The notes beneath the pieces are model-generated. The model saw only the letters and a program-made list of their open reading frames with translations. It was not told the origin of the DNA and did not search any database. This document shows, in pieces, positions 28,035 to 32,173 of a DNA stretch of 64,000 bases. This stretch comes from Spirochaetales bacterium (GTDB lineage: Bacteria > Spirochaetota > Spirochaetia > DSM-2461), in NCBI GenBank assembly GCA_022360655.1, contig JAKSCK010000060.1:62001-126000 (forward strand). Direction: 5' to 3'. The stretch's first letter is position 1. Every line of letters starts with the position of its first letter. The position numbers and the translations under genes are program-made.

Positions 28035-29861
28035 ATGCCAAAACGGCTTCTTATCCTAGCCATCCTTGCCCAAATCATTGGCCCCATCCTTGCCATCTGT
28101 CAACTCTACATCATCGGAACCATTTCTTCGCATGAATGGATATCTCTTCTTCTCCATCCCATTTCCCTCCTCTTTGCCTTTGGTGGGATCATTCTGAGTG
28201 CGGGGATCTTTCTTAGTCATATTAGAACCATTACTCGTGGTTTTGATGCTCATGGCACCCCTCTCATCGCTGCTCAGAAAGCCATTGTACGTCAGCAAAA
28301 ACTCATTGTTACCATTCCCATTCTTTGCTCGGCTTTGGAATCTTTGTTGCTTTCGTTTTTGGCGCCAGAACTTCAAAACACACCCAATCTCCTCCTCATC
28401 ATCCTCTCTCTTTCCATGACCTTTCTGGTGAGTTTGTATTTCAGCATCCGGCTGATTCAAGGACTGGAGAATTTTTCCAAAAGAATTCCGTTTTCTCAAG
28501 AACACCGTGCCTTAAGCTATCTCCCACGAACATTTATGGTCCAAACCTTTTCCATATTGGGTGCAGCCATGCTCAGTTTGGCCACGGCCTATGGAGCCTG
28601 GGAAACAGCGGATATCAACCAGTTCTTTCGCATCATCATCCCCACAGCCCTCGCGGCATCCATTCTTGCCATCACAGATAATTTTTTCTATGGGTTAGGG
28701 GTACGCCAGCGCCTCACCGCCATTCGTGATTTCACCAATGATTTATCCCATGGGAACTTGGCTGGTGCGGCTTTACCCACCTTAAATCGTGATGAATTTG
28801 GGGAACTCATTCATAGTTGCAATGAGACTCGGGAGAGTTTACGAGAATTGGCTGAAAGCCTTAAAGACTCGGTGGAAGCAACACGCCAAGCTGGTGTAGC
28901 GCTGGGAGGCATTTCTCATCGAACCGGAGAAGCCCTCACATCCATAGGATCAGAAGCTCTTCGTGTTGAAGAACAAACCGCTTCAATGGCCCAGGAAATG
29001 CAACGTTCTCAGCAACGATTGGTTTGCCTTAAATCCAACATCACCTCAGTGGCCTCGCATATTGAGGAACAAGCCAGCATGTCAGAGGAATCCACGGCCG
29101 CCCTATCCCAAATGCATGCCTCCATGACATCTATCCGTAGAATTGTGAGTCAACGTTTGCAAGCGGCCGAATCTCTACAGAATTCCAGCCGAATGGGAGG
29201 AGCCAATTTGGAAAAGACACTTGAGAATGTGGAATCCATCACCTCACGAGTCTCCACCATTACGGAGTTTTCCCAGCTGATTAGCTCTGTTGCTGATCAA
29301 ACCAATCTGTTGGCCATGAATGCCGCCATTGAAGCCGCTCATGCGGGAGAATCAGGCCGAGGCTTTGCTGTGGTGGCCGATGAAATCCGTAAACTTGCAG
29401 AAAACACAGCGGAGAATTCACGTCGAATTCATGAAGCCGTGACAGCCATTGTGGAATCCGTGCATTCTTCTGCTCAGGCAGGAGAAGAGACCCATCGAAT
29501 ATTCCAAGGAATCGAACAGGAATCCATGGAGCTTGTCCACTCCTTAAAAGACATCGAAATGGGTGTGGAAGAACTCAATACTGGAACAACCCAAGTTCTT
29601 GATTCCATGACTGAACTTCGAGAACATTCCATTGGATTGAGAGATAATGCTGGAACCATGCAGATTGAAACAGATGCTATGGAAGATGTGGTACAGAAGC
29701 TTGGAACTGTTGCCAAGGATTCCTGGGCAGCAGGAACAGCCATCTCAAAAAATTCAGGTCATGCAAAAGAACTCAAGATTCAATTGCAAAGCTGCACTCA
29801 AAGAATCGAATCTGTATCACAGGTATTAGACGAGCAAATTAAACTCCTGCGAACCCAATAG
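28035..29861 (+). CDS. Methyl-accepting chemotaxis protein with a multi-TM sensor region
   Basis: In the 608-residue protein, residues 1-230 hold about six hydrophobic segments ([20 protein letters not shown] first, [19 protein letters not shown] last) and no large outer domain. A HAMP-like linker follows ([20 protein letters not shown]). The coiled-coil signalling domain has the conserved tip [20 protein letters not shown], then [19 protein letters not shown]. The membrane-embedded sensor suggests it detects a membrane or redox signal rather than a periplasmic ligand; that is inference. GGAG precedes the ATG. Being a chemoreceptor, it implies a motile cell with a Che system. Confidence 0.92.
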
Positions 29862-29933: not shown

Positions 29934-31361
29934 CTAGGGTATGTTTTGGATTTTCTGATTTTGAGTTTTTTGTTCTGTAAGAAAATTGGCAAACTTCTGA
30001 TCAGACTCAAGGATATGATTCTTTAACCAAGAAAAGAGAAATCCCTCCACTTCTGTGGAAAAAACATAGTTTCGTTCTTTGTTGAGACGAAGAACTTTTT
30101 CACTGAGTCGCCGATGTTCCTCTTTATGAGCCTCTTTCTGAGGATAATTGTATTGAGAATGAAGGGCTTCTTCATTCTCAAAATGTTCTGCTGTATAGGA
30201 GATGAGACGGTCAAATATTCGAGATAGGTGTGAAGGGCTCAGATTGGACTTGACCGCTCGAACAAATTCCGAAGTAATTTCAAACAGTTTTCGATGCTCT
30301 TCATCAATGGCTTTTACTCCCAAGAGATACGCTTCTGACCACTGAAAAAGATTTTCATCATGAGACTCATAATCCCCGTTCGCTTCATCAGATTGATGAA
30401 GCGTTTCTGCATCACGCATGAGAAGAAGAACGCGGTCCCCTTCCAGAATGGTGTCGTGTACTGGAGGATCCCTACGTGGGTGTTGTCCTGGTGTTTCAAC
30501 ACTGAGCACCCGTAATGCACCAGTTCGAGAAAGAAGATTCTTGATTTGAAGTCCATGGGTTTCATTGTTATAGATTCGCAAGCTGTGCCCCATCGCTCTT
30601 CCACCTGCCGATTCACCTGCCGATTCCTCCCGCCCTGCCATACGATCTTCAATGAGTCTGGCCACTTGGCGCCCCCCCATTTGCAAGGGATACACCACCC
30701 TATCGGCACCTGCCCGAAGCAATCGACTTTCCGCATCATCTTTATACCCACGAGCAATCACATAAAGTGATGGATTGAGCTCTTTAACAGCCAAGGTCAC
30801 ATACATGTTTGTGGAGTCATCACCAAGATCGGTCACCAAACCAGAAGCCCGTTCAATACCCGCTTCAATGAGAGTGGAATCATAGGTGGCTTCACCAATC
30901 ACGGTGAGATATCGTCGCTGCTTAGCCCACTTTGCATAATCCTCTCGTTTTTCTACAACAACAAATGAAACACCAGCCTCATCAAGCTCTGAGCATATGG
31001 ATGAACCAATTCCTCCAAAGCCACAAACAATGTAATGCCCTTTTAAACGGCCAATAATCTTATTCATTCGTGCTCCTCCAAAATACTGCTGGAAATGACT
31101 TTCTAAAAAAGCTTGAGCCAATTGGGATGCAAAAACGGCCGCAGCACCAATGCCAGCAAAAATAATGAAAATCGTGAAAACGCGTCCCCAAGAAGAAAGT
31201 GGAAGAGTTTCTCCAAACCCAACGGTTGTGATGGAGATTGCTGTCATGTAAAACCCATCTAATAAAGTCCATCCCTCTTCAATGAGGGGATAACCAAAGG
31301 TCCCAATCAATAGAATGAGTCCGATGAGGGCCAACATACGGAGAAGTCGAGTCCTCCCCAT
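29934..31361 (-). CDS. Two-TM K+ channel with RCK domains fused to a C-terminal hemerythrin domain
   Basis: The 475-residue protein has a first membrane helix at about 7-26, a pore with the filter TTVGFGE (45-51), and a second helix at about 59-82. The RCK/TrkA-N domain starts at GHYIVCGFGGIGSSICSEL (108-126), with conserved acidic E137 ending the second strand; an RCK-C-like part spans about 258-316. A complete hemerythrin domain runs from about 337 to 462, with all seven diiron ligands: H356, H393, E397, H412, H416, H449 and D454. RCK domains gate K+ flow by binding nucleotides or ions; hemerythrin binds O2 or NO. An O2- or redox-gated channel is the natural inference. It starts two bases after the stand-alone hemerythrin gene. 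Confidence 0.92.
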   Translation of the reverse strand: MGRTRLLRMLALIGLILLIGTFGYPLIEEGWTLLDGFYMTAISITTVGFGETLPLSSWGRVFTIFIIFAGIGAAAVFASQLAQAFLESHFQQYFGGARMNKIIGRLKGHYIVCGFGGIGSSICSELDEAGVSFVVVEKREDYAKWAKQRRYLTVIGEATYDSTLIEAGIERASGLVTDLGDDSTNMYVTLAVKELNPSLYVIARGYKDDAESRLLRAGADRVVYPLQMGGRQVARLIEDRMAGREESAGESAGGRAMGHSLRIYNNETHGLQIKNLLSRTGALRVLSVETPGQHPRRDPPVHDTILEGDRVLLLMRDAETLHQSDEANGDYESHDENLFQWSEAYLLGVKAIDEEHRKLFEITSEFVRAVKSNLSPSHLSRIFDRLISYTAEHFENEEALHSQYNYPQKEAHKEEHRRLSEKVLRLNKERNYVFSTEVEGFLFSWLKNHILESDQKFANFLTEQKTQNQKIQNIP

Positions 31362-31363
31362 TT

Positions 31364-32173
31364 CTAATGTTCCGCCTCAATCACAGCCACAGCCTCATCA
31401 CAATCACTCTGATCAACCAAGCCACAGTGGAGAAGTTGATGAAGAAGGTCATGCTTTGATTGGGAGGGGACCTGGGCCTGCATCATCTGGTGAAGATTGG
31501 TCCGTTCCATCAAAGCCTTTCGAAGAGTCTCCGCATTGATGGCTAAAATCAAACCTTCTTCCAGAAGCAAATCAATGGTTTGGAGTGCGAGTAAGAGTTT
31601 TTGAGGCAGAGTCACATCAATTTTTTGAAAGAGTTTTGTGATGAGAGAATTTTGCTTTTCTTCTTTTTGTTGCCCACTCAAAACACCGTTCTTTTGCATC
31701 ATTTCCAATTTCCGTAATGGAGGTTCGAGAAGGGCAAACAGGTCAGAGGCCGTTCGTAACGCAGGTGTGCGCTCCCCACCCATGGCCGAGTAATGATTTC
31801 CAATCTTGCTATCTTCAGCCAAAATATGATCCGTAAGCCAATTCATGAGCAGATAGTAAAACTCAATGGGCTTATACGATTTTTGGGCTTTGAGTCTTTC
31901 CAGAACTTCACGAAGACGCCCAATCAATGTGGCATGCATCACTTTATGTGCATCCAGCTGAGGATAGTGGATACGTTGCATCAAGGCTTCTTCCGCCTCA
32001 AAGTGATAGCTGGCATACTTTACAAGAAAAATGAGGATACGACGCATTTCTTCCCAGATATCAAGATTTTCATCGGAAATGGCCGTTTTGAATCGCTCTA
32101 TCAGCTTGAATAATTGCTTATGCTGCTCATCAATCTCTTTTACCCCAACAGAATAGTCATTATCCCAAACCAT
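31364..32173 (-). CDS. Bacteriohemerythrin-like protein with a C-terminal helical extension
   Basis: Residues 1-125 of 269 form a hemerythrin domain opening VWDNDYSVGVKEIDEQHKQL. All seven diiron ligands are visible: H18, H57, E61, H76, H80, H116 and D121. Residues 130-269 are Gln/Leu/Lys-rich and look helical, and I do not recognise them; PQKLLLALQTIDLLLEEGLI is the most ordered stretch. Simple bacteriohemerythrins are about 130 residues, so this is twice the usual length. GAGGTG precedes the ATG. The gene is two bases upstream of the channel-hemerythrin fusion and must be co-expressed with it. It may deliver O2 or sense it alongside the channel. Confidence 0.9.
   Translation of the reverse strand: MVWDNDYSVGVKEIDEQHKQLFKLIERFKTAISDENLDIWEEMRRILIFLVKYASYHFEAEEALMQRIHYPQLDAHKVMHATLIGRLREVLERLKAQKSYKPIEFYYLLMNWLTDHILAEDSKIGNHYSAMGGERTPALRTASDLFALLEPPLRKLEMMQKNGVLSGQQKEEKQNSLITKLFQKIDVTLPQKLLLALQTIDLLLEEGLILAINAETLRKALMERTNLHQMMQAQVPSQSKHDLLHQLLHCGLVDQSDCDEAVAVIEAEH

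Follow-up and report, generated by a model that had tools for sequence, protein, structure and literature searches.

The best-characterized relatives of the protein described here are two K+ channels controlled by cytoplasmic RCK domains. MthK of Methanothermobacter joins a two-helix (2TM) pore to an RCK domain, is gated by Ca2+ and ends after the RCK, and translation from an internal start at Met107 yields the soluble half of its octameric ring (PMC9440719). GsuK of Geobacter sulfurreducens, with an RCK of the nucleotide-type Rossmann kind, is activated by NAD+ and ADP and carries two tandem RCK domains per chain and no hemerythrin (PMC3510474). RCK-controlled K+ flux as a stress response is also known from the glutathione-gated efflux systems KefC and KefB, whose RCK is homologous to that of the present protein but which differ from it in their antiporter-type pore, their glutathione ligands and the lack of a hemerythrin. 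Among bacterial hemerythrin sensors, a review lists fusions to chemoreceptors, diguanylate cyclases, HD-GYP proteins and P1B-5-ATPases, and no channel (PMC9388753). DcrH and the other bacteriohemerythrin chimeras (MCP-Hr, Bhr-DGC and Bhr-HD-GYP) place a hemerythrin with the canonical motif at the terminus of a signalling protein, and control by O2 or redox state has been shown for some of them, but their outputs are chemotaxis or c-di-GMP (PMC9388753). In the bacteriohemerythrin sensors characterized to date, the redox state of the diiron site is the switch: the activity of Bhr-DGC rises tenfold in the diferrous form, and Bhr-HD-GYP is active only when diferrous (PMC9388753). The P1B-5-type ATPases are likewise membrane transport proteins with a C-terminal hemerythrin-like domain, yet they are ATP-driven metal pumps with an altered ligand motif (HxE for HxxxH) and without an RCK.

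We analyzed a 64,000-nucleotide stretch of a spirochaete genome, hereafter the window, which belongs to an assembly of 3.62 Mb in 273 contigs that is about 90% complete. FlaA, the spirochaete flagellar sheath protein family, has three matches in this genome and none in 14 control genomes. A first-pass annotation, made from the letters of the window, had proposed that a single chain combines a pore with a TVGFGE filter, an RCK domain and a complete hemerythrin with all seven diiron ligands, and the gene indeed encodes all of these in one open frame (Table 1). All three Pfam domains scored above their cut-offs, the Pfam Hemerythrin family matching residues 348-458 with 45 bits, and the more specific NCBIfam model bact_hemeryth exceeded its cut-off of 84 bits. 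The ligands H356, H393, E397, H412, H416, H449 and D454 form the canonical H-HxxxE-HxxxH-HxxxxD motif (7/7). The RCK follows immediately C-terminal to the inner helix, as in the fold match to MthK. Sequence comparison with solved structures placed GsuK (the best PDB match) and MthK closest to the pore-RCK portion, and DcrH-Hr closest to the C-terminus. An AlphaFold model reached a mean pLDDT of 76 and a pTM of 0.41, the latter indicating weak global order. Neither Pfam nor NCBIfam detected P-type ATPase domains in the chain, which is thus not a P1B-5-ATPase. The linker between RCK and hemerythrin is disordered and ranges from 15 to 33 residues in the homologues, which argues against rigid coupling and points to the hemerythrin as a tethered module rather than a rigid extension of the RCK ring.

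Table 1 Features of the fusion gene and of the adjacent hemerythrin gene (window coordinates)
Feature	Position	Strand	Evidence
Fusion gene, 2TM K+ pore-RCK-linker-bacteriohemerythrin, 475 aa	29934..31361	minus	Single open frame; Pfam/NCBIfam; homologues in 12 genomes
Two-helix K+ channel pore, residues 13-85	31107..31325	minus	Pfam Ion_trans_2 61 bits, E 7.9e-17; Foldseek best matches MthK, GsuK
Selectivity filter TVGFGE, residues 46-51	31209..31226	minus	Codons ACC GTT GGG TTT GGA GAA
Shine-Dalgarno GGAGGAG, 5-nt spacer to internal start	31073..31079	minus	Sequence; anti-SD duplex -9.3 kcal/mol
Putative internal start ATG (Met99), 10 codons 5' of RCK beta-strand 1	31065..31067	minus	Met99 in 12/12 fusions
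RCK N-lobe, Rossmann, residues 110-225	30687..31034	minus	Pfam TrkA_N 104 bits
RCK C-lobe, about residues 240-316	30414..30644	minus	phmmer alignment to GsuK RCK as far as residue 314; alpha/beta fold in model
Disordered acidic linker, residues 317-337	30351..30413	minus	pLDDT < 50 at 317-338
Bacteriohemerythrin domain, residues 338-461, 7 diiron ligands	29979..30350	minus	NCBIfam NF033749 108.7 bits; DcrH-Hr by sequence
Upstream bacteriohemerythrin, 269 aa (Hr residues 1-127, all-helical tail about 142-269)	31364..32173	minus	

Both the channel class and the sensor domain are known; it is their combination that seems to have gone undescribed. No TrkA or ion-channel fusion is mentioned in the main text of a survey of hemerythrin architectures from 2016, and our search for literature on hemerythrins and channels, largely among open-access papers, returned no description of this one. 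That literature likewise contains no account of a bacterial ion channel gated directly by a non-heme diiron center, in agreement with the first-pass remark that no described hemerythrin-gated K+ channel was known. Protein databases may well list the architecture without comment.

Comparison of the window protein with 61 relatives revealed six further full-length fusions. A profile built from the seven full-length sequences and run on 395 genomes of the class recovered twelve fusions in total, with scores of 603-795 bits, the next match being a hemerythrin-less channel at 265 bits. A search across the phylum (393 Spirochaetota genomes) added none, no fusion occurred among 69 matching plasmid records, and the 11 Planctomycetota loci obtained in a contig scan with patterns of the window protein alone were unfused channels without a hemerythrin. 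The twelve fusion genomes belong to two families and five genera, namely the window's family (g1 and g3) and family f23 (three genera); in f23, six of the eight genomes carry the fusion, including all four with at least 90% completeness and at most 5% contamination. The occurrence of the same fusion in 12 genomes rules out an assembly or frameshift artefact and disposes of the concern, raised at the outset, that the fusion might be missing from all relatives. Identity to the window protein among the fusions is 34-45%, and the seven diiron ligands are invariant. In the close pairs for which it was measurable, dN/dS was 0.06-0.16 for the pore, 0.04-0.08 for the RCK and 0.07-0.15 for the hemerythrin; purifying selection acts on every domain of the fusion. 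The invariant ligands together with the low dN/dS suggest that the hemerythrin is constrained as a working metal site and is no decaying appendage.

In a tree of the channel half, the twelve fusions and one unfused channel (L107, from genome G420) formed a single clade with support of 100/100, and an AU test rejected the tree in which the fusions exclude L107 (p 0.001). The hemerythrin domains of the twelve fusions also formed one clade (98/97), separate from 21 other sampled hemerythrins. The simplest reading of these trees is one fusion event, followed by vertical or lateral spread and then a single loss of the hemerythrin. The window protein and that of genome G019 pair within the fusion clade, away from the four other fusions of the window's genus, which makes lateral transfer or paralogy likely. 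The unfused channel in G420 (L107:1480-2511) is nested in the fused clade and stems from the fused lineage by loss of its hemerythrin, which implies that the channel can do without it; a decayed relative of the same family is present in genome G438 (L136:1642-2142).

The RCK part of the fusions appears to be of the nucleotide-binding kind. The GxGxxG glycines G114, G116 and G119 are invariant in the 12 fusions, and residue 137, which closes beta-strand 2, is E or D in all of them. A GxGxxG motif with an acidic residue closing strand 2 is the usual signature of adenine-nucleotide binding. At the positions of the MthK Ca2+ site (D184/E210/E212), the window protein has D178, which is C or S in relatives, an invariant R204, and Y206 (Y or T in the fusions); with E210 and E212 replaced, we rejected MthK-like Ca2+ gating, and this difference from MthK comes in addition to the nucleotide-type motif and the added hemerythrin.

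A further possible likeness to MthK, overlooked in the first-pass annotation, is a putative in-frame internal translation start between the inner helix and the RCK, placed like Met107 of MthK. The survey of this site covered 60 pore-RCK sequences of Spirochaetota and Planctomycetota, both with and without a hemerythrin (loci including L034-L044, L067-L084 and L107-L109). In 55 of the 60, the codon at an offset of exactly 10 from the first RCK strand is ATG, GTG or TTG, and in 54 it is combined with a Shine-Dalgarno duplex at least as strong as -5 kcal/mol, the best other offset giving 10, with the proviso that the sequences are related and the counts hence not independent. In the ten Planctomycetota sequences alignable here, the residue is always a valine encoded by GTG and preceded by GGGAGG or GGGAGA, and each of these ten sites has a joint probability of 0.002-0.005 under synonymous reshuffling. 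The spirochaete relatives L067, L069, L108 and L109 have TTG or GTG at the same site (P of 0.02 or less), and in the f9/f4 clade the start sits closer, 3 codons ahead of the strand, and follows an AGGAG. The use of GTG and TTG and the shifted start with an AGGAG of its own indicate the behavior of a start codon rather than an amino-acid constraint. Compared with synonymous codon choices, the Shine-Dalgarno sequence of the window is not stronger, and that of the fusions taken alone is not clearly stronger, save marginally in one clade. A methionine in the linker of Kch-type channels was noted earlier, and its removal from E. coli Kch was without effect (PMC2920069). Judged by these sequence patterns, the fusion gene probably also makes a soluble 377-aa RCK-hemerythrin chain from Met99. 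The presence of the start throughout the family, even as GTG or TTG, suggests that, in this branch of the RCK channels, rings are generally built from two products. By analogy with the octameric ring of MthK, the incorporation of soluble RCK-hemerythrin chains would bring up to eight diiron domains to each channel.

Taking these observations together, we consider it rather probable, by analogy with the described channels and sensors, that the protein is an RCK-gated K+ channel of the MthK/GsuK kind whose gating is modulated by the diiron redox or O2 state of its hemerythrin. The fuller version, in which alternative internal translation gives an octameric RCK ring with up to eight hemerythrins and the diiron-gated channel reads nucleotide and O2 or redox state jointly and passes them on to the membrane potential, is put forward tentatively, at slightly less than even confidence. 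As in MthK, four full-length chains would form the pore, soluble chains from Met99 would complete the octameric RCK ring, and the ring would pull on the pore-lining helices. As judged from RCK biochemistry, the RCK would bind an adenine nucleotide, of which NAD(H) and ADP are the probable candidates, while the hemerythrin, as bacteriohemerythrin biochemistry would have it, would shift between diferrous and diferric or O2-bound states. Such a shift may change how the tethered hemerythrins, as many as eight, pack on a ring or between rings, and thereby bias opening; given the disordered linker, coupling must come from packing of the hemerythrins on the ring or on each other, or else the hemerythrin does not gate. 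As for direction, our weak guess is that the channel is closed under reducing conditions and that O2 or oxidative stress opens it, leading to K+ efflux and a change in membrane potential, in logic similar to the electrophile-triggered K+ efflux through KefC. Because neither cytochrome bd nor a heme-copper oxidase was found in the window genome (about 90% complete), the bacterium is probably anaerobic, and O2 would then act as a danger or stress signal. If diiron gating is correct, the O2 or redox state would be connected to the membrane potential within one polypeptide, in spirochaetes that swim and also use hemerythrin chemoreceptors. For electrophysiologists, the protein would offer a small, testable channel with a sensor visible by spectroscopy.

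The disordered linker would suit a protein in which the RCK ligand alone (NAD(H), ADP or cations) gates the channel and the hemerythrin is passive cargo that stores iron or binds or scavenges O2 or NO at the membrane, the soluble RCK-hemerythrin chain then serving as a hemerythrin carrier. Such an arrangement would accommodate the flexibility and variable length of the linker, the retention of the channel in the one lineage that dropped its hemerythrin, and the finding that free bacteriohemerythrins are common in these genomes. We nevertheless regard it as unlikely: the hemerythrin has stayed attached across deep divergence with all ligands intact, cargo would need no fusion where free hemerythrin genes exist, and the known hemerythrin fusions are mostly to signalling outputs.

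Variation in the selectivity filter bears on whether the pore conducts at all. T46, G48 and E51 are invariant among the 12 fusions, and three of the twelve (L006/L046 in G047, L009/L049 in G006 and L010/L050 in G008) have their last filter glycine replaced by Arg (TVGYRE or TVGFRE), so conduction or selectivity may differ in those three. Many unfused channels that are otherwise well kept (L067-L082) have Arg, Ser, Gln or Ala at this glycine (e.g., TVGFRE, TVGFSE or TTTGFQE), and an odd filter as a hallmark of the fusion was therefore rejected. These substitutions, along with the KtrAB locus of the window genome, could fit a vestigial, non-conducting pore that anchors to the membrane either a redox or nucleotide sensor or a protein regulating other K+ systems (KtrAB itself, for example). 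GFG or GYG is, however, kept in the window protein, in eight other fusions and in all Planctomycetota relatives, and with the low dN/dS of the pore this makes a vestigial pore improbable.

The hemerythrin gene upstream of the channel had been described as complete, as lying two bases away and as carrying a helical tail of about 140 residues, and all of this was confirmed: all seven diiron ligands are present, the gene ends two bases ahead of the channel ATG, and the tail is predicted to be all-helical, with no match in Pfam, in the PDB or by fold beyond the hemerythrin part. Since both genes lie on the same strand with a two-base gap, their co-translation is plausible, and in the window genome the hemerythrin is probably co-transcribed with the channel. 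A conserved two-gene operon was rejected because no fusion locus outside the window genome has the pair: the neighbors at the other eleven are unrelated, and within the genus they are a DinB-like protein and a metallo-beta-lactamase-fold protein (assigned by eye) and in f23 other genes. The coupling of the two genes claimed at first therefore did not hold up, and the suggestion that the long hemerythrin may load, buffer or modulate the channel is left without comparative support. The closest relative of the upstream hemerythrin, in G019 (44% over the hemerythrin domain), lies on a different contig from the fusion of that genome, and of the tailed relatives found in G019 and G097 none adjoins a channel. 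That both adjacent genes form one device, with the long hemerythrin as a subunit specialized in loading or modulating the channel, would agree with their spacing and orientation in the window but is very improbable with the pair missing elsewhere and the relatives of the long hemerythrin occurring without an adjacent channel. Two tandem long hemerythrins with similar helical tails in G097 (L092:2-1670) adjoin ABC transporter-like genes.

The third hemerythrin of the window genome, an MCP-Hr gene (L051:9954-14152, G000:C219), is divergent from ktrB-ktrA, and two of the three hemerythrin loci of this genome hence adjoin K+ transport genes. The MCP-Hr loci fetched from other genomes have no Ktr nearby, and the K+ link of this gene is probably incidental. 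Within the window itself, a plus-strand gene (28035-29861) for a membrane chemoreceptor-like protein with an MCP signalling domain converges with the fusion gene, whose 3' end lies 72 bases from it.
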